A DNA stretch of 26,954 nt, taken from a virus. Each line of letters opens with the position of its first letter. The first letter of the stretch is position 1. The stretch covers positions 1 to 26,954 of the IMG/VR virus record IMGVR_UViG_3300014962_000044; one strand, written 5' to 3'. Under the pieces are notes generated by a model. It worked only from the letters and a program-made list of their open reading frames with translations. It searched no databases and was not told where the DNA came from. Shown in pieces: positions 3,917-25,687 of this stretch. Both the position numbers and the translations under genes were made by a program.

Positions 3917-6900
3917 CTAAGTAGCTCCATGTGTATTAACTGTTTTGTTTAAGCCTTCTTTTACACCTAATTCCATAGCAAGTCCAGAAATAGTTAAACC
4001 TTCCCCATATGTTCCAACATCTGGTGGCAATTCTTCTATTTTGAACTTAACCATAGAGCATTTTTGTCGCTTTGGCCTTATTTCTAAATTATAAAAATTT
4101 GTATCTATAACCGTTGTAGTATCTACTATAACTGAATCTACATAAGTTTCTGACATATTATAAGCAAAAGATATTTTTAACTTATGCGGAGATTTATAAG
4201 TTGCTAATATCATTAATTTATACAAACGCTGATACCCTTGTAATCCGGCAAATGAAATCCATGAGGATGTTAACTTTATTGGTACGTAAACTCCGCCATT
4301 ATTATCAGTAAAAGATACAGGTAAAGACCTATTTTTTGCATATTTATAGACTTTTCCAGTATTTGTTAAATGATACAATTCTGTATCTTCTCCAATTATC
4401 ATGTCTACGATATTATCAAATGCAACCGGCGGTGTTAATTGGTCCCAACGTGGTTGTGTACTCCATCGGTTTGAAAAGTAGTCGTAGTTAACGATAACAC
4501 TATCAGCCATAACAAATCTAATTTCATTTGTTTTTGGCAACATAACTGCTGTGGTTACATTAGTATTATATTTTTCTGCTGGAGCACCTTTGTATTGAAT
4601 TGAGAAATTTCTACCAAGTAAATAAATACCTTTAGCAGAATTGAATAGTAGGCCTTCTGGAGTATTGATTATGGAGTTTTTGTCTATACAACCTGCATCT
4701 GTTGTAATAAGTTGTGGAGTAGTAAAATCATCTTGCTGACCTAAATTATTAGGCCCATCTCCATTCATGGCATAAATAAAGTTTTCTTTAAAAATTATCA
4801 GTGAGTTATCCAATGAACCGATTCCAGTCAGCTTTCCACCGGCCTCAGGTATATCTTTTTTTAAAGCACCATTAAATGCTATTGGATTTCCTTGAGTTAG
4901 CAATTGACTGTAGCTCAAAGTCTGTCTATTGTCATCTATAGAAAAAACTCGGTTTTTATGGGTAGCTAAGTGATAAGATGCGTTTAGAGCGTCGTTTTCA
5001 AGTGCATTGCCTGATGTATATAACAATTCTCCGGCAACTAAGTCAGGAGTATTTTCGGTAGTTAGATTCGAAACACTAAAATACGAAGAAATGCTGTTAA
5101 AAACAGTAAACTGTGAATCTAATTTATGATAAGTAATTCCATTAGTACTAGTCATGTAAATTTCTGGTACAACATTTTCTTTTAATGTAAAGTTTAGTCT
5201 GGAAACATATACAAAAATTGTATTTACGTTTGTTGCCGTAACTTGAACATACTGATTATCACTTGGCGCACTTCTATAAACGTTACCATTATTATCTCTA
5301 TATGACCAGACAATATAAAATCTATAAATTCCAACTGGAATACCAACAAATCCTGGAATTGGACTAACAGTCTGTTGTATGTTTAAAATTTGAGGTCTAT
5401 CTATAAATCCTTGCTCTGATATTAACTTACCATCATACAGTAATGGTAATGCTCCATTAAAAAGCAGTTGATTTTCTATGTTTATTTTACTTATATCGGA
5501 ATATATGCTTGGCTGCAAAGTAGTTTGAGTAACTTTTGTAGTAGTCCACTCAGTTGGTTTTGTTATTGAATAGTATGGAACCGACGAAAATGCAATATTA
5601 ACCAGTGAAAGTTTACCGTCTACAATTATCAGAGAGCTTGGCAATAAAATTTCTGATTTTTTTGATGACGTAGTTTTTCTAGAGTAAGGTACCGTTTCTT
5701 CCTTATCTCTTGCAGATACAATTGTCCAGTTTGTATCGTCAGAACTTTCCAGTAAATATGTTGTATACCCATATGTTTGCTGCTGAGAACCAGATGTTCT
5801 GTCAAGTGGTGGCAATGGAATTGCTGTATATGTTAAAGTAGGTTTAACAGCTACATAGTGTTTATTTTGATATAGTAAAAATTCAGATACTAAATTTGTT
5901 TCAGTGTATATTGTTGTATTGGAGACTACTGTTCCAGCAGATGTAACTTCTGCTTTTTTTAAATTGTTATCTCTAGTAGAGTATAAAATAACAGATGTGG
6001 TTGCTGTAGAAATATGTTGAATAGAAGTTATAAATTGAACGTAAACAGAGCTATCAAATGATACTGGAGCATGTACAACGGTAGCCAAGTTAGACTTAAG
6101 TCTTGCCAAAGTGAATAAAGATGTTGAACTTCCACTTGTAGAATTCGTTGCTCCGGTTAATCTAATCGTAGCACCATTATTTTCAAAAGACAATGCAACC
6201 ACGCTTGGTGAAAAAGGAGTTCCAGAAGATACATTAGTAGAGCTTAAAAATGAGCCCGATGAATCGTATTTACTTATTGTTAAATTGCCTGATTTTATAT
6301 GTGCTAAATAAAAATTTGTACCGTCATTTATTAATGAGCCTGGATAAGATGAAACTCCAGAAGATGTTGTTGTTAAAGTTAGCGTGGTAGAATTAAAAAA
6401 GTAAGTATAGTTATTATCAGTAATAAAAAAACCGTTGCTTGTTCCGCTTATATTCCCAAGTCCATCTATTGTTGGAAAAAGCGTAGTAACTAAAGTCGTA
6501 GAGAATAAGATAGTTTCAGTATTTTTATCCTCAATTATTAACTTTGTATTAGTCAAAGTTGCATTGCTACTATCTTCAATAATAACATATCCAACAAGAT
6601 TGTTAGAAACTGCATGTCTAACAGAAACAACGCTTGTGTCTGCATCATATTTAATACCATAGTCAGATGAAAATGGTCTAAAATTGCCTTTTTTGTCCCA
6701 TTTGGCTGCTGACGGTGAATAAGAATATAAAGAATTGTTATCAGTCATTATTAATTGATTATTAAATTTGGCCAAAGATGTACCAGATGATATGGTATTG
6801 CCAGATACTGTCTCGTTAGATAGTTTAGCATTGCCAAGCCTTTTCTGTACTCCACCAAGCTTAGCGAAGTTTACATTTTCAGCTTCAGTAAATCTTGTAG

Positions 6901-14179: not shown

Positions 14180-14337
14180 AACAAGAGCATACAACATCAA
14201 ATATTGTTGCCGTACTTGTATTAGTTTTTTGGGCTACTGTTTTATATCTCAGTTTGAGACAGTTGGGTAAATTTAGTAGCATTATGGAAGTTTATCATCA
14301 TACAATTAAACAGGAGGATACAGATGGAACAAATTAA
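14176..14337 (+). CDS. Small single-span membrane protein
   Basis: A 53-residue protein from a GTG start with an excellent AGGAGA ribosome site six bases upstream; the start overlaps the previous stop (GTGA). Residues 9-26 (NIVAVLVLVFWATVLYLS) form one membrane span, with a short charged N-terminus and a C-terminal tail of about 27 residues rich in Glu, Asp and His. It resembles pinholin- or spanin-sized phage proteins and stands upstream of a lipoprotein and a transglycosylase, so a lysis role is possible. That is inference only. Confidence 0.6.
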   Translation: MKQEHTTSNIVAVLVLVFWATVLYLSLRQLGKFSSIMEVYHHTIKQEDTDGTN

Positions 14338-14566: not shown

Positions 14567-15031
14567 ATGAAAATACTGTTGTTTTTTTCTATAATATTTA
14601 TTGTTGGATGCGCTCCTGGATTTGAGCCTGGTGTTTTTGCAATAGATAAAAGGTTTTCTACTCAAGTTTCTAGATTTGAACAAATGTATGATATTGATGT
14701 TACCGTTTCTGTTCAAATGGCCAAACTTGCTCCCCCACAACTTGGTGTTTGTTATTATGCAGGAAGAAATAATAGTACTGTGAATTTGGTTCAGATTGAT
14801 GAAGAGTATTGGGATAGGGCTACGGATATAGAAAAAGAATTTTTAATTTACCATGAACTGGGCCATTGTGTTTTTGGCTTAAAGCATAATGATGCTTATG
14901 GAAAAGTAGGAAACTACAATTCTGCTCCATTAAGTATAATGAACACTTATAATTTTGGAGCTTATCCAGTTTATGTGCAAAATACTAATTATTATTATAA
15001 TCAACTTTTTCAACAATATAAAGTGAGGTAA
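14567..15031 (+). CDS. Lipoprotein zinc metalloprotease (zincin) candidate
   Basis: A 154-residue protein. Residues 1-14 are a lipoprotein signal ending IVGC, so Cys15 would be lipidated and the protein anchored on the outer side of the inner membrane or in the outer membrane. The middle holds YHELGHCVFGLKH: HExxH at 96-100, Gly104 and His107. Downstream PLSIMN (Met125) has the look of a metzincin Met-turn. The zinc motif has one residue more between HExxH and Gly than the metzincin HExxHxxGxxH rule. In a phage such a protein could cut envelope proteins during lysis, exclude rival phages, or open the peptidoglycan layer by peptide cleavage. Lipobox and zinc motif are seen directly; the function is inferred. 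Confidence 0.8.
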   Translation: MKILLFFSIIFIVGCAPGFEPGVFAIDKRFSTQVSRFEQMYDIDVTVSVQMAKLAPPQLGVCYYAGRNNSTVNLVQIDEEYWDRATDIEKEFLIYHELGHCVFGLKHNDAYGKVGNYNSAPLSIMNTYNFGAYPVYVQNTNYYYNQLFQQYKVR

Positions 15032-15033
15032 TT

Positions 15034-15291
15034 ATGAGTAAGGTTACGATTGAGTTTAATCTACCAGAAGAGCAAGAAGATTTGAATTTAGCATTAAAGG
15101 CTAATGATTTGGCTTGTGCAATATTTGAAATTAGAAATCAAGTTTTTAGGCCTGCACGAAAGCACGGTTATGGTCACGAGGCTATAGATGCGTTTATTCA
15201 AAAAAATCCTGATGCTGTAGACTTAATTTATATGCTTGAGCAGTTGTTTACTCAGGTTCTAGATGAGCATAATGTATTGGAGCATAGCTAA
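15034..15291 (+). CDS. Small conserved-type phage protein
   Basis: An 85-residue acidic protein: a beta start (MSKVTIEFNLPEEQEDLN) then helices with ALKANDLACAIFEIRNQVFR, a basic turn (RKHGYG) and FIQKNPDAVDLIYMLEQLF. Small proteins that start xVTxxLxxEE/D and contain an ALK..D...A..EI...LR segment are widespread in podophages; their role is not settled. An AGTGAGGT ribosome site precedes it by four bases. It is coupled to the next gene by a TAATG overlap. Confidence 0.65.
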   Translation: MSKVTIEFNLPEEQEDLNLALKANDLACAIFEIRNQVFRPARKHGYGHEAIDAFIQKNPDAVDLIYMLEQLFTQVLDEHNVLEHS

Positions 15292-15401
15292 TGGATACAA
15301 CCTATATTTACTACAGTGAGCAGATTGATGGTTTTATTATTATGTCTCAGCAGTTGCCAGATTTTTTCTTTGGAGACCTGGTCTATGTGGGTGAACTATG
15401 A
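15291..15401 (+). CDS. Mini-protein 1 of a look-alike trio
   Basis: A 36-residue peptide that starts on the last base of the previous stop and overlaps the next start. It reads MDTTYIYYSEQIDGFIIMSQ and ends DLVYVGEL. The pattern of an aromatic-rich strand, a short turn, a second strand and a final GEL recurs in the next two genes, suggesting tandem duplication of a small beta-hairpin protein. No known family. Confidence 0.5.
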   Translation: MDTTYIYYSEQIDGFIIMSQQLPDFFFGDLVYVGEL

Positions 15402-15502
15402 AAAAATTTTATGTGTACTATTATATTCCTACAAATGAAGTTTTTGTATCAACTTATTATGTTAAAAGTAATAAATCTATTAGGCTATTGGGAGAGCTAT
15501 GA
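15398..15502 (+). CDS. Mini-protein 2 of a look-alike trio
   Basis: A 34-residue peptide beginning MKKFYVYYYIPTNEVFVSTY and ending LLGEL. It resembles both neighbours: aromatic strand, Pro/Asn turn, FVST or IVST strand, and a C-terminal GEL. The start overlaps the previous stop (ATGA), as does its own stop with the next start, so translation is coupled. No separate ribosome site is obvious. Confidence 0.5.
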   Translation: MKKFYVYYYIPTNEVFVSTYYVKSNKSIRLLGEL

Positions 15503-15768
15503 TGGAAAAGTGGAGATTTTATATTCCAAAAGGTCATTATATCGTCTCGACTAATATTTATACTAGTACAAAAAAGCCTACTGATGATTATTGGGGTGAT
15601 TATGATTACGCAGATGCAGTGTATATTGGAGAGGAGTGGAAAAAGTCAAACTACAGTACTTTTGACAATAGTGGACCAAAATGTGAGTGCGGTGTATTAA
15701 TTACGTATGGTGATAAATGTCCACCAGAGTACCATTCGAGTTATTGTCCTTTATATAGAAAAATTTAA
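15499..15768 (+). CDS. Longer member of the trio with a Cys/His cluster
   Basis: An 89-residue protein. Its start (MEKWRFYIPKGHYIVSTNIY) is similar to mini-protein 2, and it then carries DAVYIGEEW, comparable to the C-termini of both shorter members. After about residue 55 it adds a tail with Cys63, Cys65, Cys74 and Cys83 plus a His, a likely zinc-binding patch. ATG 15499 or 15502 may be the start; GGAGAG stands just upstream. Its function is unknown. Confidence 0.6.
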   Translation: MMEKWRFYIPKGHYIVSTNIYTSTKKPTDDYWGDYDYADAVYIGEEWKKSNYSTFDNSGPKCECGVLITYGDKCPPEYHSSYCPLYRKI

Positions 15769-15788
15769 CATTAACAAAGGAGAAATTT

Positions 15789-15947
15789 ATGGCTAAAAAA
15801 GTAAACAAAGAGTATTTGGAAAAGATGGAAAAAATGTTAACTGAGGCATTGTCTGGAAATGTACCAGAAAAACATAAAGAAAATATACCGGCGTATATAC
15901 AATATATTAAAAAAGAAATCTTGCTAGCATCTAGGTCTGCCGGCTAA
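15789..15947 (+). CDS. Small helical protein
   Basis: A 52-residue Lys/Glu-rich protein (MAKKVNKEYLEKMEKMLTEA...) with two predicted amphipathic helices, preceded by AAAGGAGA at good spacing. It is the last gene before the terminator at 15973-16003. No family is recognised. Confidence 0.55.
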   Translation: MAKKVNKEYLEKMEKMLTEALSGNVPEKHKENIPAYIQYIKKEILLASRSAG

Positions 15948-15972
15948 AAATGACAAAAAATGGTACTTTTGG

Positions 15973-16003
15973 CGCATCAGAATGATACTCTGGTGCGTTT
16001 TTT
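15973..16003 (+). terminator. Rho-independent terminator
   Basis: CGCATCAGA (15973-15981) pairs with TCTGGTGCG (15989-15997) with one G-T pair, around a 7-base loop and followed by six T. It closes the first plus-strand sub-operon, so the transglycosylase gene either relies on read-through or has its own promoter. Confidence 0.8.
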
Positions 16004-16053
16004 ATTTCCAAATGCAGATAACTAGGTTATTCTGATATCAATAAGGAGGCTAT

Positions 16054-16431
16054 ATGTTATTACTTCAATTAACTTCATGCCTAACTTGGATGTGTATGGG
16101 AAACGTTGCAGCAGACTACTATGGTGTTGATAGAAAACTTGTTAGGGCGGTTATTTTAACCGAATCCATGGGTAGGGCTAATGTGGTTAGTAAGACTGGA
16201 GACTACGGTATTATGCAGGTTAATAAGCGTAATATTAAAGATTATAGAATATATGTGGATGTTAGATTTCAAATAGTTGCTGGAGTAGAGCACTTGGCTA
16301 AATTAAAGCATAAGAAGCACCGACCTTGTACTTATAATGTAGGAACTGCTCCATTTACACAAAATAGATTGAAAGCTTGTGTAAAATATGCTAATAAGTT
16401 AAAGAAGTACGGTTATGTTGCTAAAAATTAG
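16054..16431 (+). CDS. Lytic transglycosylase (endolysin-type), SLT family
   Basis: A 125-residue protein. Residues 1-20 are moderately hydrophobic and might act as a poor signal or signal-arrest segment. The family motifs are in order: AVILTESMGRANVVS with catalytic Glu37, GDYGIMQVN at 49-57, and CTYNVG at 92-97 in place of the usual AYNAG. These enzymes cut the glycan strands of peptidoglycan without water, forming anhydromuramic acid. A strong AAGGAGG ribosome site is present. It is the best candidate for the phage lysin. At 125 residues it is near the minimum for the fold, so no extra cell-wall-binding domain is present. Confidence 0.88.
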   Translation: MLLLQLTSCLTWMCMGNVAADYYGVDRKLVRAVILTESMGRANVVSKTGDYGIMQVNKRNIKDYRIYVDVRFQIVAGVEHLAKLKHKKHRPCTYNVGTAPFTQNRLKACVKYANKLKKYGYVAKN

Positions 16432-16439
16432 GAGATACA

Positions 16440-16769
16440 ATGGCCATTGTAGATAGAAGCTCTAGACCAAGAACAGAAATAGAAAACGTTTTATGGGCAA
16501 TCAAAAAAGCTGATGTAGTTTATGATATTGAGTTGGCAAGGGTAATAGCTTCTGTTCATGGCGTAAGCCCAGAGCGTATTGAAATTTTGCTTGGTCCACA
16601 AATTATTATAATTGACCCGAGATTTTTAAAAGAAAGAAATATTTTTGCACGAAAACCTGGAATCATTAAAAAAGTTTTGATGTATTTTAATAAAAGAGTT
16701 TTTTATAGCATTAGTTTAAAAAAACTTATTAGACTAACTGGTAATGATTTAATTTTAAAACAAAAATAG
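16440..16769 (+). CDS. Hypothetical basic protein
   Basis: A 109-residue protein. The N-terminal half (ENVLWAIKKADVVYDIELAR, SVHGVSPERIEILLGP) looks like a short helix-turn-helix-sized bundle, followed by a hydrophobic strand (QIIIIDPRFL) and a basic C-terminus. No family is recognised. AGGAGA lies five bases before the ATG, overlapping the stop of the transglycosylase gene. It is the gene directly upstream of the structured RNA candidate. Confidence 0.6.
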   Translation: MAIVDRSSRPRTEIENVLWAIKKADVVYDIELARVIASVHGVSPERIEILLGPQIIIIDPRFLKERNIFARKPGIIKKVLMYFNKRVFYSISLKKLIRLTGNDLILKQK

Positions 16770-16772
16770 TTT

Positions 16773-16981
16773 TGAGACGTAGGCGTGAAGTCGCTGTGGT
16801 GAGAGTGTAGGGAGTGTTAAACTCTAGATTAAAAGCCTCCAAATAGGCACTTGCTATCCACTAGGACACGCAGAGAGAAGATAATACTCGGAGCCGAATA
16901 TGAGGGTAATCTGCAGAGAACTTTGTTGATACGCATGAACCTCAGTAAGCTCGTAGCCATGGTCGCGTATGGCACGTCTCA
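16773..16981 (+). ncRNA. Candidate structured non-coding RNA, about 209 bases
   Basis: This interval has no plausible reading frame and, by hand count, is about 48 percent G+C in an AT-rich neighbourhood. Its ends pair perfectly: TGAGACGT (16773-16780) with ACGTCTCA (16974-16981). Inside are further helices: GCAGA with TCTGC (16870-16874 / 16910-16914) enclosing a hairpin at 16884-16901; GTGG with CCAC (16796-16799 / 16858-16861) enclosing GAGT/ACTC and GCCT/AGGC hairpins; and GCCAT with ATGGC (16956-16960 / 16969-16973), which abuts the closing stem like a T-arm. ACGC (16931-16934) can pair with GCGT in that hairpin's loop, a possible pseudoknot. It does not match group I intron, RNase P, tmRNA or tRNA signatures that I know. 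It may be processed from the operon transcript. Confidence 0.6.
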
Positions 16982-16998
16982 CTTTTTAGGAGCTTAAA

Positions 16999-17469
16999 TT
17001 GTCCAAACAATATGGATTCCAGCAGCAACTATCAAAGGGCTTACAGGCTCAAAAAGAATTTGCCGATTTTTATGAAATAGAACTATTAGACGGTACTGGT
17101 GCAGATATGAAATTGGCAAATGGCGCACTGGTGGAACTAAAAACGGACTTTAGAAACTCCAAGCGTACAGGAAATCTGTTTATTGAACGTTACAGTTCAA
17201 GTTTAAAAAAGTCTGATGGTGGTCCGTGGAAAGCTAAAACTGACGGCTGTATGTATTTTGTATATAAGTTTGATGATATTGTTTTGTGCTATTTAGTAGA
17301 TGAATTATTGGAATTTCTAAATAAAAACATACAAAATTACACATCTAAACGCATAAATAATGGCAGTTATGATACTTTGGGATATTTAGTTCCAATTCAT
17401 CATGTATCTCATATAGCTTTAGATTTTAGACAAATTGTATTAGACGCTGAAAATGAAGTAAATACTTAA
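16999..17469 (+). CDS. PD-(D/E)XK-type nuclease
   Basis: A 156-residue protein from a TTG start supported by AGGAG six bases upstream. A helix with Glu20 leads to GTGADMKLANGALVELKTD: Asp36 and Glu46-x-Lys48 form the D...ExK metal site of restriction-like nucleases, followed by the strand GNLFIERYSS. Size and layout fit phage junction resolvases or small DNA-processing nucleases (T7 endonuclease I-like role). It could also be a host-DNA degrading enzyme. The fold call is good; the substrate is unknown. It is the first gene after the structured RNA. Confidence 0.75.
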   Translation: MSKQYGFQQQLSKGLQAQKEFADFYEIELLDGTGADMKLANGALVELKTDFRNSKRTGNLFIERYSSSLKKSDGGPWKAKTDGCMYFVYKFDDIVLCYLVDELLEFLNKNIQNYTSKRINNGSYDTLGYLVPIHHVSHIALDFRQIVLDAENEVNT

Positions 17470-17510
17470 ATATCCTGATATTACTAGCATTTTTATAGTA
17501 AACAATCTAG

Positions 17511-17539
17511 TTGACTATTATGCTCCATTTTGGTACATA
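17511..17539 (+). promoter_or_regulatory. Promoter candidate giving a leaderless message
   Basis: TTGACT (17511-17516), 17 bases, then TACATA (17534-17539). The -10 box is poor but the -35 and spacing are right. The start would fall near 17546, which is the A of the next gene's ATG, and that gene lacks a ribosome site. Confidence 0.45.
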
Positions 17540-17545
17540 TTAACT

Positions 17546-17854
17546 ATGAGCAAGATAGTTACAAGAAAAGCGCCACATAATGCTACGCGTATTATTAAGC
17601 CAAACGTGTTGGCTGATGAAGTCTATAATATCTTATCTGTTGAAATAAATAAATTAAGCGTTAAGTCTAGAGGTCCAGGTTTAGAACCGGTGGATATTAA
17701 GGCTTTGAAAGAATTATCTAGTGTGCTACTTGGGCTAGATAAGGCTGAACGTGAGCGTAATAAATCAGATGCATTACTGGGCGAACTTCAGAATCTCAGT
17801 AAAGAAGAACTAGTTGAAATCGTAAAATCTGAACTGGAGCAGTCTGATGAATAA
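17546..17854 (+). CDS. Small terminase subunit candidate
   Basis: A 102-residue protein. It begins with a basic segment (MSKIVTRKAPHNATRIIKPN), then helices ADEVYNILSVEINKLSV, DIKALKELSSVLLGLDKAER and a Glu-rich C-terminal helix. Small terminase subunits of podophages often have this layout: a basic start and a central oligomerising helix with a conserved LxxLxKxxxxLxxAERE-like stretch. The large subunit lies five genes downstream. The assignment is tentative; a structural or regulatory role is also possible. No ribosome site precedes it. Confidence 0.6.
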   Translation: MSKIVTRKAPHNATRIIKPNVLADEVYNILSVEINKLSVKSRGPGLEPVDIKALKELSSVLLGLDKAERERNKSDALLGELQNLSKEELVEIVKSELEQSDE

Positions 17855-18182
17855 GCCAAGTTTGTATGCACAATATTTAGCAGAAAGGTCTAACGTAAAT
17901 ATTATTGAAAAGGACACTGGCTATATAACTTATATTTTTACAAAAGATTATTGTTATATTGAGGACATTTATGTTGTACCAGAAGCTAGAGGTACAAAGC
18001 TGGCTTCAAATTTGGCTAAAGAAGTTGCAGAAGAAGCTCTCAAGCATGGTTACAAAAAACTTTTAGGTTCTGTCTGTATATCAGCCAATGGGGCGGAGCG
18101 AAATGTAGCTTATATGTTAAACTATGGATATAAAATAAAAAGTCTTGAAGGCGATATGATTTATTTTATTAAGGATATATAA
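17847..18182 (+). CDS. GNAT-family acetyltransferase 1
   Basis: A 111-residue protein, short for the family. DYCYIEDIYVVPEARGTKLA (about 30-50) is GNAT motif A, where V-x-x-x-x-R-G-x-x binds the acetyl-CoA pyrophosphate; NGAERNVAYMLNYGYK is the motif B region. The N-terminal strands are reduced. It overlaps the previous gene by eight bases, so the two are coupled. The acceptor is unknown; phage GNATs have been found to modify host proteins or DNA bases. Right next to packaging genes, a virion or packaging protein target is possible. Confidence 0.8.
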   Translation: MNKPSLYAQYLAERSNVNIIEKDTGYITYIFTKDYCYIEDIYVVPEARGTKLASNLAKEVAEEALKHGYKKLLGSVCISANGAERNVAYMLNYGYKIKSLEGDMIYFIKDI

Positions 18183-18610
18183 TGGGACTTGTTATCAGAG
18201 AACTTACAAAAGAAGACTATCCAATTATTTTTAATAGTTGGTTAAAAAGTTATAGCAAAGAATATGTTAAGTATAAAAATGTTCCTAACCAAATTTACTA
18301 TCAAGGACAGCATCTACTAATCGAAAATTTGTTGTCTAATAGCACTACTTTAGTTGCAGTTGATAGTGAAGACCAAAACATAGTTCTTGGATATTGTGTT
18401 GGGACCAAGTCAGAAGACACTTTTGTGGTGCATTATATCTATGTTAAAAAAGACTTTAGAGGTATGAAAATTGCTTCTAATATATTAAAATATGCTGGCG
18501 TAACTCCAGAGTCTAATATTGTTTTTACTCACTATACTCCGTCGGGAGCAGCGCTCGCTTCAAAATTTAACGCTATATATCACCCTTATATATTAATGGT
18601 AGGTGCATAA
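18182..18610 (+). CDS. GNAT-family acetyltransferase-like 2
   Basis: A 142-residue protein with an intact-looking N-terminal half (LVIRELTKEDYPIIFNSWL). Motif A reads VVHYIYVKKDFRGMKIASNI, with R-G-M-K-I instead of the usual Q/R-G-x-G-x-A/G, so the pyrophosphate loop is altered. The C-terminal part after the motif is short and ends HPYILMVGA. It shares one base with the first GNAT gene (TAATG). The two are only distantly alike, so a recent tandem duplication is not evident. Activity cannot be judged by sight. Confidence 0.75.
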   Translation: MGLVIRELTKEDYPIIFNSWLKSYSKEYVKYKNVPNQIYYQGQHLLIENLLSNSTTLVAVDSEDQNIVLGYCVGTKSEDTFVVHYIYVKKDFRGMKIASNILKYAGVTPESNIVFTHYTPSGAALASKFNAIYHPYILMVGA

Positions 18611-19182
18611 TGGTTAATGAGCAAGAGCAGGGCGCACTTTCATTTGCTATTGAGCTTGCAATTGGTCAGGGCATAAATGTTCTAGATAGGTCTATACAAA
18701 TCTTTGAAGATATTGATAGTAATACGCTAAAAAAAGTAGATTATGGAGTGTCTATATTAGAAAAACTTGGCTCAGAACCAATTACAGTCCGTATTGCTAC
18801 GGCTGGTGGAGATGTTTACGCTGGATTCGGTATTGCAGGGAGACTTCGTGCTAGCAGTTGCGAAATAATCACTGAAGCATATGGAAATTGCATGAGTAGT
18901 GGCGTTATGGTGTTCTCTGCTGGTGATGTTAGGCGAGCAAAAGAGCCTGTTTTATTTATGTTACATCAGTTGTCTGCTGAAATCCCAGAAGACAAGTTAT
19001 TAGGGCTTAAGGCAGCCGTAATTCAACTAAAAAGAGACCAAGAAGTTTATATAAAGTACTTAGCACAACGCACAGGTACGTCAACAAAAGTATGGAAAAG
19101 TTTTATTAACAGGTCAGATGATACGTATTTAACTGCTGCAGAGGCGTTACATCTAAATTTGGCCACAGAGGAGGTTTTATAA
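18610..19182 (+). CDS. ClpP-like serine protease, prohead protease candidate
   Basis: A 190-residue protein. It has the ClpP/S14 pattern: ITVRIATAGGDVYAGFGIAG, then GNCMSSGVMVFSAG with nucleophile Ser96, FMLHQ with His119, and DDTYLTAAEAL with Asp171, aligned without gaps around each residue to the ClpP triad. There is no signal peptide, so it acts in the cytoplasm. In phages this fold often serves as prohead protease, trimming scaffold and capsid. It stands before the large terminase, far from the capsid and on the other strand, which is unusual. It overlaps the flanking starts by single bases. Confidence 0.88.
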   Translation: MVNEQEQGALSFAIELAIGQGINVLDRSIQIFEDIDSNTLKKVDYGVSILEKLGSEPITVRIATAGGDVYAGFGIAGRLRASSCEIITEAYGNCMSSGVMVFSAGDVRRAKEPVLFMLHQLSAEIPEDKLLGLKAAVIQLKRDQEVYIKYLAQRTGTSTKVWKSFINRSDDTYLTAAEALHLNLATEEVL

Positions 19183-19439
19183 TGGAACAACAAACGTCAG
19201 AAGTCGCTACTGAGGCTCAAAATACCGACCAGGTACTATCAAAATGGGTATCTGACTTGCGTAAATCGTTAAAAGAAAAGTCAAAAAATGAATTAGTACG
19301 TCTAGTTATTCATATGACTATTGAGCTATATAAGGAAAAGGAAAAAAATGAAAAAAATTCTAATAACTCTACTGATTCTTCTGAGCTTATCTCTAGCACT
19401 GAAGGCAGAAGAGCGCCAGATAACAGTAACCAAGACTAA
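19182..19439 (+). CDS. Small charged protein overlapping the exported protease gene
   Basis: An 85-residue protein. The first 55 residues are helical (VLSKWVSDLRKSLKEKSKNE, then LVRLVIHMTIELYKEKEK); the rest is a Ser/Asn/Asp-rich tail with low complexity. The last 92 bases overlap the next gene in another frame, and that low-complexity tail lies exactly over the neighbour's signal-peptide codons. So its C-terminus is probably shaped by the overlap. It starts at the stop of the ClpP-like gene and has GAGGAGG-like bases before the ATG. Function unknown. Confidence 0.65.
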   Translation: MEQQTSEVATEAQNTDQVLSKWVSDLRKSLKEKSKNELVRLVIHMTIELYKEKEKNEKNSNNSTDSSELISSTEGRRAPDNSNQD

Positions 19440-19929
19440 TTCTATCTGTGTTTGCGATGATTTTACGCCTATGCTTATCATGAGTATAGTAGTGCAATCT
19501 GCGTTATTTGCAAAAAAGGTAGATTATATTATCATACAAAGTCGTGGTGGTTACACAGTTACAATTTGGCCAATTCAGCTTTTATTAGAAAAGTATCCTG
19601 ATGCAACTGTTGTTATTACAGATGCTATGTCTGCAGCAGCATTTTTATCCGTGCGTTTGCCAAATAAACGTGTTATAGATAAGCAAGGAATGATGTTATT
19701 TCATAAGGTATACACAACCGTTAAAATGTCTCCAAGAGAGGATGCTAGGTTAAAGGTGGTTAATTATGCTCTTATGTGGGATGCAGCTAGACTTATGAAC
19801 ATGACTTATATGGAGTATAGGGACAAGGTAATAAATGGCGATTGGATTATACTACCAGATGAACTACTACTTCGTGGAATTGTTTCTGAGATTGTTAATA
19901 TTAAGATAGATAATAGTTATTATAAATAA
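19348..19929 (+). CDS. Exported ClpP-fold serine protease
   Basis: A 193-residue protein from ATG 19348 (AAGGAAAAGG upstream); a TTG start nine codons earlier is unlikely. Residues 1-20 (MKKILITLLILLSLSLALKA) form a classical signal peptide with a probable cut after Ala20. The mature part follows the ClpP pattern: VDYIIIQSRGGYTVTIWPIQ, ITDAMSAAAFLSV with Ser95, MMLFHK with His119, and INGDWIILPDELL with Asp165. So a second, distinct ClpP-fold enzyme would work in the periplasm or outside the cell, resembling SppA in location but not in architecture. Both proteases are next to each other, yet they share little beyond the fold. Confidence 0.85.
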   Translation: MKKILITLLILLSLSLALKAEERQITVTKTNSICVCDDFTPMLIMSIVVQSALFAKKVDYIIIQSRGGYTVTIWPIQLLLEKYPDATVVITDAMSAAAFLSVRLPNKRVIDKQGMMLFHKVYTTVKMSPREDARLKVVNYALMWDAARLMNMTYMEYRDKVINGDWIILPDELLLRGIVSEIVNIKIDNSYYK

Positions 19930-19938
19930 GGAGTTTTT

Positions 19939-20223
19939 ATGTCTACAGCAAAAAAAGTTAATGTTGAGTTAAGCGTTGAGCCAAAAAGAACAATTAAGAT
20001 TGTACGATTTTGGCAAGCAGTTTATATTGGTAATGCCCCAGCTAATTTTATTTTAAATCCAAAAGTTCAAGACAATGGTACACCAAGACTTGGAAACAGC
20101 ATCCCAGACGATGTAGAAATTATTACTGTTGATGGCGGTATTGAAATATCTTCTAAGTCAAAAAAAGAAGTTGTGTTTGTAAGCCACGCCAACATTGGTT
20201 CTATAGTCTATATTACGGAATAA
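19939..20223 (+). CDS. Small beta-rich protein, unknown
   Basis: A 94-residue protein with mostly beta character: VNVELSVEPKRTIKIVRFWQ, then AVYIGNAPANF, DVEIITVDGGIEIS and VVFVSHANIGSIVYITE. No cysteine, signal or membrane span. The composition suits a small virion protein or a cofactor for the genes beside it. It has AAGGAG before the ATG, and its stop is three bases before the terminase start. No family is recognised. Confidence 0.6.
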   Translation: MSTAKKVNVELSVEPKRTIKIVRFWQAVYIGNAPANFILNPKVQDNGTPRLGNSIPDDVEIITVDGGIEISSKSKKEVVFVSHANIGSIVYITE

Positions 20224-20226
20224 TTT

Positions 20227-21681
20227 GTGGCTAAAAGGCCTACTGTTATTAGTCCAGCAATGCGAGAATTGGCTAAACGGTTGGAGCAAGAAAAGGCTCC
20301 TAAGTTTAGCATTGACAACTTTTGCTTTGACAAGCAGAAAGAGTTTTTGCGTTCTGATGGCAGATTCAAAGTTGCGTGTACTAGTACGAGGGCTGGTAAA
20401 AGTAATGCCTTAATTGCTCATATGATTGAGACTTGTATAACGGAACGTGATGTGGTTGTGGCTTATTTTACCATTAGTGCCAACAGTGCAAGAAATATTA
20501 TCTGGGGTGAACTAAAGAAAATATTAGAAGACTATAGTATTAACTGTGACATCAATGAAACGACTATGCGTGTTAAGTTTAAAGATACGCGGTCAGAAAT
20601 TCGTATTAATGGTGCCAATAACGAAAGCGAAATTGAAAAGGTTCGGGGTTGGAAACTTAGAGCAGCCTACGTAGATGAGGCCCAGAGTTTTCGTGGTTAT
20701 TTAAAGTATTTTATAGAATCTATTTTAATGTCTCGTTTAAGAGACCAGGCTGGAACTCTAATTATCACTGGAACTCCAGGTCCTGTACCATCAGGTTTCT
20801 TCTATGACATTTATCATAACGAAAATAGCTGGAAAAAGTTTCACTGGACATGCTTTGACAATCCTCATATGCGTAATTTGGAGCAAGTGTTAGCAGAAGA
20901 AAGAGCTGCTGCTGGTATTACAGAAGAGGACCCTAGCTATCAGCGAGAGGTTTATGGACGCTGGGTCCAAGATAAAAATAGCCTAGTGTTTCAGTTTAAT
21001 AGAGATTTAAATGTAACTACAACTATCCCAGAAAAATTAGAGTATATATTTGGAGTCGATTTTGGATACAAAGACAGTGACGCTATTGCGGTTATTGGTT
21101 ATAATGAGTCTAATGTTTATCTTGTAGAAGAATTAATTACGGCTAAACAAAATATCAGTGAGCTGGCAGGGCAGATTAAGGTTTTGCAAGAGCGGTATAA
21201 GCCTACGAAGATAGTTTACGACGGTGGAGCGCTTGGTTTGAAAATTGGTATGGAGTTGCAACAGCGTCATGGCCTATATATGCAGCCAGCTGATAAGGCT
21301 CGTAAGATAGAGTTTATTGAGTTACTGAATGATGACCTTAGAACTGGTAGATTTAAGGCTTTTCCTAATAGTAGATTTGAAGAAGACTGTGGTTTGCTGC
21401 TTTGGGATAAGTCGGTTGGCAACGGTAAGCGTGTCGTTTCTGAAAGTTATCATAGCGATATAACAGACGCAGCACTTTATAGTTGGCGTGAAGCTAAGCA
21501 CTTTTTAAACGTGCCTGCTATGACTGAAAAGCCAGCACTACGTAGTTTTCAGCAACTTGAAGACCAGGTTGCAAAAGAATCTGCCGAGGTTGATGCTGCT
21601 AAGCGTGGTGAGATTTTAGATGATAACGTCAGTGAAGAAGACCTTATGTCTATATTTGATATTTATGGTAATGATTATTAG
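20227..21681 (+). CDS. Terminase large subunit
   Basis: A 484-residue DNA-packaging motor and nuclease. The start is GTG 20227 with only a weak GGA upstream. The ATPase half has Walker A TSTRAGKS (52-59, a variant P-loop), Walker B AAYVDEAQ (147-154, Asp150-Glu151) and the coupling motif TGTPG (181-185). The nuclease half has the RNase H-like acidic residues Asp278 in GVDFGYKD, Asp332 in IVYDGGALG and Asp411/Asp414 in HSDITDAALY. It would dock on the portal encoded at 11711-13522, on the opposite strand. All key residues are present, so the enzyme looks functional. The next gene ends one base beyond its stop in the opposite direction. Confidence 0.95.
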   Translation: MAKRPTVISPAMRELAKRLEQEKAPKFSIDNFCFDKQKEFLRSDGRFKVACTSTRAGKSNALIAHMIETCITERDVVVAYFTISANSARNIIWGELKKILEDYSINCDINETTMRVKFKDTRSEIRINGANNESEIEKVRGWKLRAAYVDEAQSFRGYLKYFIESILMSRLRDQAGTLIITGTPGPVPSGFFYDIYHNENSWKKFHWTCFDNPHMRNLEQVLAEERAAAGITEEDPSYQREVYGRWVQDKNSLVFQFNRDLNVTTTIPEKLEYIFGVDFGYKDSDAIAVIGYNESNVYLVEELITAKQNISELAGQIKVLQERYKPTKIVYDGGALGLKIGMELQQRHGLYMQPADKARKIEFIELLNDDLRTGRFKAFPNSRFEEDCGLLLWDKSVGNGKRVVSESYHSDITDAALYSWREAKHFLNVPAMTEKPALRSFQQLEDQVAKESAEVDAAKRGEILDDNVSEEDLMSIFDIYGNDY

Positions 21682-22129: not shown

Positions 22130-22690
22130 AAATTTCTCCTATAACTCGACTTTAAACTGCTGGGGCGGGCTTGTCAAATTTTAATTTTTAGGCGTCTCAA
22201 AATGACTAGAGTAAAAACTCTAAATGGGTAAAAATTGGAACTTGTAAGCATGATTTACAAGCTGCCTGAAAATACCAGAAAGTTCAATTTTTCAAAAGGA
22301 TATTCAGTTTTACTCGTGTCGTCCAAAAGGCTCAGGTCAAATATATTCGATTTGAGTGTCAGCAGTTTAGATGGCTGGTGCGGCGCGATTTTTTTGCTAT
22401 TTTTAGTTTGGCATAAAGTTTTCTAATGGCTGTTATAATAATGACTAATTTTGTACTCGTTCTGTTGGCAAAAAGAAATTTATAGGCCATATAATTTTTA
22501 CTTATACTAATGAACTTTGCCAGCTTAAAGTCAGAAGGCCAAACTTTAAAGTTTTTGGAGATTTTAAAGCCTGACTTTGCTTTTGAAAAATTTGACTTTG
22601 AAACGGACATGAACAATTTCCAATAAATGCAACTGGCTTTAGCGAACTTTGGGTGTGGCAACGGGAGAAAGTGTGAGCGATTACCGTAGC

Positions 22691-22744
22691 TTATATATTT
22701 TTAATTACTTTACTAATTTAATAAAATATAAAAAACATATATTC
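22691..22744. other. AT-rich patch, possible unwinding element
   Basis: Fifty-four bases with four C and no G, including TTATATATTTTTAATTAC. It would melt easily and lies some 650 bases from the iterated array. Confidence 0.45.
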
Positions 22745-23140
22745 TTTCCCAAAAAGGCCGTTTTTAGAAACAACTTACTTTACTTTAAGTCTCCTTTTTT
22801 GGTCCTTTTTTTCTATGGGTATGGGGTAAACTGTTTATGTAGGCCCAGGCTATGTCTATGTCTATAGTCTATACCATGGCCTTAGCCTAAATAACATAGA
22901 ACCTGTAAACGCAAATAAACCTACGCTACGCAAATCAATTTAAAGGCCTCTAATCGCCTCACCATTGAACGAATGGCCCGCGAGGCATACCCAAGTATGG
23001 GTCACAGGTTACAGGGCTTATAAACGCGATTACGAGTTATGCCTATATTTGAGCTGACAGGCTATAATAGGCTATTAGACAAACGATTAGACCTTAGTCC
23101 ATACCTAAGCCTATCCCTGGACTATCGTGGCTTAAAAGGA

Positions 23141-23163
23141 CCGTTTGACGCGAATAGGGCCTT
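23141..23163 (+). repeat. Copy 1 of a shared element (CCGTTTGACGCGAA + CGAATAGGGCCTT)
   Basis: CCGTTTGACGCGAATA recurs as CCGTCTGACGCGAACA at 24491-24506, and CGAATAGGGCCTT (23151-23163) recurs inverted as AAGGCCCTATTCG at 24535-24547. Both partners lie within 60 bases of each other in the second location. A phage-specific promoter or protein-binding site is possible. Confidence 0.5.
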
Positions 23164-23249
23164 ACCAAGTTGTAAGTGTTAATAGTCTATACACCTGTAA
23201 AAAAAGTTATAACTATTTGAAACTAGTGCCATTTTTAGGCCTACCCTGT

Positions 23250-23339
23250 ATAAAAACACCCTTATTTAAAAACACCCCCACCATAAAAAGACACACATAT
23301 AAACGGCCCATCCCCACATTAACCCCCTATATTAAAAAA
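23250..23339. other. G-poor A/C-rich tract
   Basis: Only three G in 90 bases on the plus strand, with runs such as AAAAACACCC and CACCCCCACC. The strong strand bias is unlike coding DNA here and could expose a single-stranded or primase-binding region beside the iterated array. Confidence 0.45.
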
Positions 23340-23366
23340 GTGCCCTGCTTTCACACACTTATAACT

Positions 23367-23383
23367 TTGGCACAGTCTTTGCA
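23367..23383 (+). promoter_or_regulatory. Sigma54-type -24/-12 match, plus strand
   Basis: TTGGCACAGTCTTTGCA has GG-N10-GC at the right spacing and nearly the full TGGCAC-N5-TTGCA pattern. It sits at the left edge of the array. No plus-strand gene follows, so a promoter role is doubtful. Confidence 0.4.
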
Positions 23384-23387
23384 CCCC

Positions 23388-23622
23388 TGCAAGTTTTATG
23401 CTACGGTTTACTGTTGCAATATTTATGCCAACTAAGTAGCCTTGCAAGAATCATGCCATTGAAACTATTATGCAATTTCTATGCCAGCCCACAAGACTAT
23501 GCAATATCTATGCCAATTAAACAGCCTTGCAAGAATCATGCCAATCCACATAAGCATGCAATAATCGCGCCATACTGTGTATCACATTGAAACTGTTGAG
23601 GTATCTGCAATTTTTAGGCCAG
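23388..23622 (-). repeat. Iterated 16-17 base element at 28-29 base spacing (iteron-like / sigma54-like array)
   Basis: On the plus strand, units such as TGCAATATTTATGCCA, TGCAAGAATCATGCCA and TGCAATTTCTATGCCA recur with their conserved GC at 23416, 23444, 23472, 23501, 23529, 23558 and 23607, plus a weaker copy at 23389. Spacing is 27, 28, 28, 29, 28, 29 and then 49. Copies 23442-23458 and 23527-23543 are identical. The consensus is TGCAA-N6-ATGCCA. Read on the minus strand every strong copy is TGGC-N8-TTGCA, which fits the sigma54 rule GG-N10-GC. Same orientation and regular pitch also fit replication iterons. Confidence 0.75.
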
Positions 23623-23723
23623 CAGCTGCCATTTTCTGCCATTTTTATGTCTCAAATTGGTACATTTGCCAACAGATGTATAGCAAACATGACTCAAAAT
23701 GAGATTTTTAGGTAGATTTTAGT

Positions 23724-23740
23724 TTGGCACGGAAGTTGCG
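23724..23740 (+). promoter_or_regulatory. Near-perfect sigma54-type -24/-12 match, plus strand
   Basis: TTGGCACGGAAGTTGCG matches the published consensus YTGGCACGrNNNTTGCW in all but the last base. Transcription would begin near 23750, exactly where the 11-base tandem repeat starts, and would run antisense to the minus-strand genes. Confidence 0.45.
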
Positions 23741-23753
23741 TCAATACGAGACA

Positions 23754-23838
23754 CTTACAATGTTCTTACAATGTTCTTACAATGTTCTTACAATGTTCTT
23801 ACAATGTTCTTACAATGTTCTTACAATGTTCTTACAAT
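23754..23838. repeat. 11-base perfect tandem repeat, 7.7 copies
   Basis: CTTACAATGTT is repeated seven times without a mismatch (23754-23830), followed by CTTACAAT. Eleven bases is close to one helical turn, so any bend or protein contact is repeated on the same face. It begins after the sigma54-like site and ends 17 bases before the stop of the next minus-strand gene. Confidence 0.9.
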
Positions 23839-23854
23839 ATATCTAATTATCCTA

Positions 23855-24196
23855 CTAAGCACATTTATCATATCTACTTCGGTCCAAAGTCCCATGCCTA
23901 TCGTCTTTTTCATTTAACCAACACGTGACAATTAATCCGCCGTGTCGCAACACAAGCACAAGGTCCAGCCGACTGCTATAGCTCAATCTAACAACTAATT
24001 TTGTCGGTACATTGTTGACAGTTTCTAGTTCTATCAGCTTGCAATCACGACCCTTAATCGTCTTCGGTAGTTCAATGAAACCATATCGGTCCGTATGTGA
24101 AGCCTCTATCGCATGATTCGATGGACTTAAATTCATAATGTCTGGTAGTTTCAACTTTGGCATATATACTTGATAATGATACAGCTTAGTTTTCAT
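23855..24196 (-). CDS. Hypothetical phage protein
   Basis: A 113-residue protein: MKTKLYHYQVYMPKLKLPDI, a polar middle with HTDRYGFIELPKTIKGRDC, then beta strands (CKLIELETVNNVPTKLVVRL and LDLVLVLRHGGLIVTCWL) and a basic tail. No motif is recognised. It starts two bases after the previous stop (TAA-AA-ATG), with GGTGG as a possible ribosome site. It is the last gene of the right-hand minus operon before the repeat region. Two-strand layout suggests a small beta-fold regulator or toxin-size protein, but nothing supports a specific role. Confidence 0.65.
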   Translation of the reverse strand: MKTKLYHYQVYMPKLKLPDIMNLSPSNHAIEASHTDRYGFIELPKTIKGRDCKLIELETVNNVPTKLVVRLSYSSRLDLVLVLRHGGLIVTCWLNEKDDRHGTLDRSRYDKCA

Positions 24197-25021: not shown

Positions 25022-25687
25022 TTAAGACACCTTTGCCCATGCGGTATTTGAATAGTTTTTAGCGCCGTGGTAGACTAAGCCAATTTTATTTAAGACACCT
25101 ACAGCTGCAACCATATCGTCTTCTGTACCGTCAACATAACCAGCGGCTTGCAGCGCCTCAATCGACTCAAACACGCGGGCATGACGGTGTTTGCTGGTGT
25201 CTATCAAATGGTCCTGTTTCCCCCCAAAGCTGAATATAAGTGTGAAATTTGAGGGCAAAATCTCACTTTGAAACATAGCGACTTGCTTGGTATATGCGTA
25301 GAATGAAACTCTATCATTATTCTCAAAATGAGACATGATGGATTTCCACCTATTGTAGTATTCAATGCTGTAGAAGTCACCAGCGTCATGTATACGAACT
25401 TTTAAGTGTTTAGTTGACCGTTTTGATAACCAACTATTAATCTCGTTAATTATGGTGTCCACGAACTCATCTGATAATGTAAGTTGCAATTTGGCCTCAT
25501 GAACCTTTGCGACATTACTAAATCTATAAGTCCCGGACCGCGCATAACATCCAGCTGCACACGCGCCGGCGTTGGGGCAGGTGATAAGGCCTAAACTTGA
25601 CCTGAATGCTGGTATTGTCCAGTTAACAACAGTATATTGACCATCACTTGACTTTTTCATTTTCTGATTTTGAGTTAATAGTTTCAT
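25022..25687 (-). CDS. GP88-family phage protein
   Basis: A 221-residue protein. The hallmark is CPNAGACAAGCYARSGTYRF (residues 37-56, Cys37, Cys43 and Cys47), preceded by YTVVNWTIPAFRSSLGLITC and followed by VRIHDAGDFYSIEYYNRW and FYAYTKQ. This is the gene product 88 family first seen in mycobacteriophages and now in many phages and plasmids. Its three cysteines in a CxxxxxCxxxC spacing suggest a metal or iron-sulfur site, reminiscent of radical-SAM loops, but the activity is not known to me. AAGGAGA lies before the ATG. It is in one operon with the DUF932 gene, a pairing seen in phage accessory regions. Confidence 0.85.
   Translation of the reverse strand: MKLLTQNQKMKKSSDGQYTVVNWTIPAFRSSLGLITCPNAGACAAGCYARSGTYRFSNVAKVHEAKLQLTLSDEFVDTIINEINSWLSKRSTKHLKVRIHDAGDFYSIEYYNRWKSIMSHFENNDRVSFYAYTKQVAMFQSEILPSNFTLIFSFGGKQDHLIDTSKHRHARVFESIEALQAAGYVDGTEDDMVAAVGVLNKIGLVYHGAKNYSNTAWAKVS

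Follow-up and report, generated by a model that had tools for sequence, protein, structure and literature searches.

An array of predicted high-affinity host sigma54 sites in a non-coding region of a podovirus-like phage genome

Clusters of CtrA sites in phages of Alphaproteobacteria (LPEG phages) are a known and experimentally supported case of dense host-regulator sites in phage DNA; they lie in gaps or terminal repeats and show independent evolution and site turnover (PMC9437464). These clusters are the nearest precedent for the sigma54 arrays described here, which are likewise dense, intergenic and present in unrelated phages. The present arrays differ in the regulator, sigma54, in their regular 25-29 bp arrangement on both strands and in their replacement by DnaA boxes in one lineage, and they are known from sequence alone. 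A second comparison is offered by datA and plasmid-borne DnaA-box arrays, which titrate the initiator (PMC5835720). These too are clustered sites for a host DNA-binding protein, and DnaA boxes fill the same slot in the TerS-lineage phages considered below, but datA-type elements are chromosomal or plasmid-borne and sigma54 plays no part in them. Individual array sites share consensus and spacing with the -24/-12 sigma54 promoters of Salmonella (PMC3844500), and those of the window score as strong; unlike these promoters, they form a tandem array with no consistent downstream gene and no identified enhancer or activator. Iteron origins also consist of repeated units in a non-coding region, whereas the pitch and strand of the arrays are not conserved and their motif belongs to a host sigma factor. 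Replication origins are not known to be built on sigma54 arrays. A literature search that excluded preprints and most subscription journals yielded nothing on sigma54 arrays or decoys in phages, nor on sigma54 arrays being exchanged for DnaA arrays.

The window, meaning the whole stretch of DNA analysed, corresponds to a 26,954 bp virus record in IMG/VR; its portal, capsid, terminase and internal virion genes are podovirus-like. A gap from about 22661 to 23855 holds no credible ORF and is taken as non-coding. Within it, at 23367-23740, lie nine sigma54-type sites that match at least 11 of the 13 informative bases of YTGGCAYGNNNNTTGCW and retain an intact GG/GC core, confirming an earlier note that had described a regular array of sigma54-pattern sites in non-coding DNA. 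The features of the region, with matrix (PSSM) scores for the sites, are as follows.

20227..21681, plus strand: large terminase subunit
23367..23383, plus strand: sigma54-type site TTGGCACAGTCTTTGCA, left bracketing copy (PSSM 18.7)
23388..23404, minus strand: weaker copy GTAGCATAAAACTTGCA, TAGC...TTGCA, with the GG core broken, at 27 bp (PSSM 12.9)
23415..23431, minus strand: sigma54-type site TTGGCATAAATATTGCA, identical in 15 of 16 bases to the Salmonella hypA sigma54 site (PSSM 20.1)
23443..23459, minus strand: sigma54-type site ATGGCATGATTCTTGCA (PSSM 20.3)
23471..23487, minus strand: sigma54-type site CTGGCATAGAAATTGCA (PSSM 18.1)
23500..23516, minus strand: sigma54-type site TTGGCATAGATATTGCA (PSSM 18.9)
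23528..23544, minus strand: sigma54-type site TTGGCATGATTCTTGCA, matching 13 of 13 bases (PSSM 20.3)
23557..23573, minus strand: sigma54-type site ATGGCGCGATTATTGCA (PSSM 15.6)
23606..23622, minus strand: sigma54-type site CTGGCCTAAAAATTGCA, 49 bp from its neighbour (PSSM 13.4)
23692..23704, plus strand: palindromic copy ACTCAAAATGAGA of a second motif, TCTCA-N3-TGAGA
23724..23740, plus strand: sigma54-type site TTGGCACGGAAGTTGCG, right bracketing copy (PSSM 16.4)
23754..23838: 11-bp tandem repeat CTTACAATGTT, about eight copies, directly right of the array
25022..25687, minus strand: GP88-family gene (PF17338), a frequent array neighbour

The array is well beyond chance, as had been claimed: 500 shuffles of the region gave a mean of 0.11 such sites and a maximum of two, and the rest of the window contains none at the same score and core. 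The earlier description of the unit was right as to GG-N10-GC but wrong as to TGGC-N8-TTGCA, the actual unit being TGGC-N7-TTGCA. Similarly, a pitch of 28-29 bp for seven minus-strand copies holds for the first six, which are separated by steps of 28, 28, 29, 28 and 29 bp; the seventh follows at 49 bp and is therefore out of register. Across the units the core is constant, while mean identity is 0.39 in the spacers and 0.28 in the flanks. No plus-strand gene follows position 23740 in the window, in agreement with the earlier reading, and neither an Rfam nor a tRNA scan gave any hit in it. One frame of the tandem repeat at 23754-23838 gives a short repetitive peptide.

The sites were scored with a matrix built from 29 intergenic Salmonella sigma54 sites identified by ChIP-chip (PMC3844500). 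Seven window sites score at or above the median of the real Salmonella promoters, a level that no site in the remainder of the window and 0-1 sites per shuffled window attain, and the two best (20.3) stand beside a leave-one-out maximum of 20.2 for the real set. A logo over 583 phage sites follows sigma54 promoters also at positions outside the search pattern (a preceding Y, A after TGGC, then Y, and G/A), and conservation beyond the site itself is small. The sites thus combine GG-N10-GC with the TGGCAY...TTGCW consensus by which sigma54 (RpoN) sites are recognized. Assuming that the host has RpoN, it is very probable that they bind host sigma54, and the window array is best read as a cassette of predicted high-affinity host sigma54 (RpoN) sites.

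Arrays of this kind are widespread in IMG/VR, where a scan for two pattern units returned at least 120 stretches and a scan for three units returned 73 arrays. Controls with the wrong spacing gave 7 matches for N6 and 67 for N8, most of them coding repeats, which in the N8 set mostly have a period divisible by three. Among non-coding pairs the counts are at least 100 for N7 versus 1 for N6 and 24 for N8, and if the period must also not be divisible by three they become at least 70, 1 and 7. In the genome collection 15 stretches fit the pattern, and the matrix score identifies strong site clusters only in L184, which carries phage-like genes, and L189; most of the other matches are not sigma54-like by this score. 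The pattern match in L166 consists of identical tandem units, and some other pattern matches are coding repeats with a period divisible by three.

Nucleotide similarity sorts the IMG/VR arrays that have four or more strong sites into at least 55 groups, and these arrays occupy gaps of several hundred bases. The flanking genes of the 55 groups are divergent in 20, tandem in 17, convergent in 2 and unresolved in 16; the sites occur on mixed strands and their orientation is independent of these genes. Terminase genes of several unrelated families recur as neighbours. Overall, the sites are clustered, intergenic, high-scoring, depleted elsewhere and present in unrelated phages, the features that characterize CtrA-type clusters. 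Genes of the GP88 family (PF17338) also adjoin arrays in unrelated phages, at 16 loci including 25022-25687 of the window. The array is absent from the cultured Zobellviridae SIO1, ICBM1, ICP2, CRP-5, MEP401, P12053L and VP41s3 and present in the uncultured zobellvirid-like L041, and a blastn search with the arrays, which is a weak test, found no array-bearing cultured phage. In L027, a record of 147 kb of which 140 kb was read, 43 of 45 sigma54-like sites lie in one 14 kb part, about equally on the two strands.

As single queries against IMG/VR, the TerL and major capsid protein of the window found no relatives; these were obtained by portal alignment. L109, L154/G039, L157 and L103 share 35-60% portal and 36-44% terminase identity with the window, and the capsid protein is 52-53% identical in L109 and L154/G039. 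All four keep the full consensus at their sites, at a pitch of 26 in G039 and 25 in L157, and in G039 all strong sites except one lie inside a single clustered array. In L172, which shares the GP88 gene with the window at 66%, the sites are dispersed through one region in the last part of its 63.8 kb record, with none in the first 42 kb. Among the portal relatives whose upstream sequence spans 6 kb or more, a cluster of at least three sites is present in 4 of 21; its absence upstream of the portal gene in the other 17 suggests that the array is dispensable, and its presence in so few suggests that the cassette is often gained and lost. Relatives of the window lineage that lack sigma54 sites showed no other kind of repeat array.

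A denser sample comes from a second lineage, defined by the best 80 of 552 matches to a TerS query built from array-bearing phages and chosen without regard to arrays, in which near relatives are over-represented. In these 80 loci, sigma54 sites reach 2.92/kb within 1 kb upstream of terS, compared with 0.025/kb elsewhere, and strict-consensus sites number 172 in this slot versus 1 in about 348 kb elsewhere. Nine loci carry orthologous nine-site arrays in which TGGCA and TTGC are unchanged in 81 of 81 sites, while differences occur at Y and W, in the four-base spacer and in the flanks; as the loci were selected for having all nine sites, some ascertainment bias is included in this figure. In the arrays of the TerS lineage, which does not include that of the window, the predicted contact bases are shown to be under purifying selection. 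Many members have only one to three sigma54 sites, mostly in one orientation.

The same slot is also enriched for perfect DnaA boxes, which among the best 80 of 552 occur at 2.36/kb upstream of terS and at 0.006/kb elsewhere. The numbers of sigma54 sites and DnaA boxes are inversely related (Spearman -0.80, kinship ignored): the 12 loci carrying five or more sigma54 sites contain no DnaA box, and the 17 loci without sigma54 sites average 5.1 DnaA boxes. In an alignment, both array types are bordered by the same two conserved elements, namely a CCACACACTTGTCAA-like block and GGGGGAGGGG. On the best TerS-TerL tree the DnaA state requires 8 changes, at least 2 of them on well supported branches, and of two supported independent pairs drawn from the tree sigma54 and DnaA are opposed in 1.7 on average, a comparison of little power. 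This pattern suggests that the slot of the TerS lineage, as distinct from the window's own lineage, holds exchangeable arrays of either sigma54 sites or DnaA boxes. Fur-like boxes, mostly single, number 22 in the slot and 0 elsewhere in the same best 80 of 552. Several individual loci illustrate the variety of slot contents. Five to nine perfect DnaA boxes are arrayed upstream of terS in L289, L320, L299 and others, three Fur-like boxes lie within the 700 bp that precede the TerS match in L333, at about 280-335, and the slot of L271 has a repeated CTCGTGTTG motif instead of sigma54 sites.

That the window array is a chance or tandem-repeat artefact has a negligible probability, given the differences among its units in spacers and flanks, the wrong-spacing controls and the TerS-based sampling.

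As to function, we give roughly even chances to a main role as a sink for host sigma54, which makes the RpoN decoy, one of the options named in the earlier note, the leading reading. The sigma54 holoenzyme is known to form a stable closed complex that requires a bEBP for opening (PMC3844500, PMC7057263). On the array sites, sigma54 of the host or the corresponding RNA polymerase holoenzyme would dock as stable closed complexes unable to open without an activator. With at least nine sites in each genome, their number raised further by replication, the phage would draw off sigma54 and thereby silence or skew its regulon (nitrogen, flagella or pili, envelope stress). We infer the host binding, the sequestration and the benefit to the phage. 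Mixed site orientation, independence from the flanking genes and exchange with DnaA boxes all fit binding for its own sake. Replacement by DnaA boxes in one slot, in particular, is allowed by a regulator sink and hardly allowed by a promoter or an iteron. The TerS-lineage members with one to three sites would make weak sinks, and their mostly one-way orientation is promoter-like. More tentatively, and with a probability clearly below even, phages may carry exchangeable sink cassettes in one intergenic slot near their terminase genes, with arrays that bind sigma54, DnaA or perhaps Fur and would be replicated with the phage to drain the respective regulator.

Cis-regulation is a less likely role, though one to be taken seriously: the bound holoenzymes would be promoters, poised polymerases or a roadblock, tying phage transcription to the state of the host, a role that has been proposed for CtrA in phages of Alphaproteobacteria. 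The large gaps and the divergent flanking genes in 20 of 39 scorable groups are consistent with this, as are the low-copy TerS-lineage members in which most sites point one way, and the CtrA clusters provide a precedent (PMC9437464). In L031, at 5772-5830, a single plus-strand site starting at 5772 is followed by a Shine-Dalgarno sequence and a small ORF, about 200 bp from the array, and looks like a true sigma54 promoter. Across 321 sites, ORF starts lie downstream in 46 and upstream in 30, and by locus the forward excess is 24 versus 15 among 54 loci. The earlier note had considered ordinary promoters unlikely, and they are the less probable reading here too: orientation is independent of the flanking genes, and the ORF starts lean only slightly forward. 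Against regulation more generally, same-strand arrays place each start point onto the next site, making simultaneous productive initiation seem implausible, and site orientation is inconsistent with the flanking genes. Moreover, terS already lies behind a sigma70-like promoter (TTGACT...TATACT) in L319 and L322, DnaA boxes replace the sites in the TerS lineage, and no phage sigma54 or activator was found, both Sigma54_DBD and Sigma54_activat being absent from 50 array-bearing records, many of which are fragments.

A replication origin or iteron-like nucleoprotein structure, built on DnaA in some phages and on the sigma54 holoenzyme in others, would account for the repeated units, the perfect DnaA boxes in the TerS-lineage slot (2.36/kb against 0.006/kb) and the AT-rich conserved flank of that slot. 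We consider it improbable, as the repeated motif belongs to sigma54 and is not an arbitrary iteron, pitch is not conserved (25, 26, 28-29), strands are mixed and the sites of L172 are scattered. The window itself lacks TTATCCACA, and the GC-skew check proposed in the earlier note gave a change that tracks gene orientation. That note had left an iteron origin as one option and named loss of pitch with retained GG/GC in related phages as support for sigma54; relatives have the sites at a pitch of 25, 26 or 27-30 or scattered, with the full sigma54 consensus kept, so that sigma54 is favoured over iterons. Least probable among the functional readings, at the level of a long shot, is that the arrays are bound by a protein of the phage, for instance its small terminase, whose motif resembles sigma54 sites by accident. 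Terminase genes do often adjoin the arrays, but the full sigma54 pattern, including its weak positions, recurs across phages with unrelated terminases, and TerS-lineage members with DnaA boxes encode nearly the same TerS.

If the sink or regulatory interpretation is true, phages would manipulate or read their host via regulator-binding DNA rather than via proteins, and such elements would have been overlooked because no gene lies inside them. The exchange of sigma54 sites and DnaA boxes in one slot would make the sink, promoter and origin ideas separable with short synthetic fragments, and the sigma54 arrays offer a sequence signature for phage hosts that are RpoN-dependent.

Two further observations concern the window beyond the array itself. 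The GNAT-TerL gene block at 14567-21681 is inverted relative to the portal and capsid genes in comparison with L109 and L157; no long inverted repeat was found at its edges, and the inversion is either real or an assembly join. The second motif, TCTCA-N3-TGAGA, occurs in the window at 14247, 23692, 24585, 25261, 25321 and 26361 and is present also in L172 and L343-L346. As a general feature of arrays it was ruled out, since L172 holds 11 of the 18 near-array copies. Across its 63.8 kb record L172 has 38 copies, of which 34 lie in the last 6 kb, intermixed with sigma54 sites; the copies are possibly operators of some regulator.
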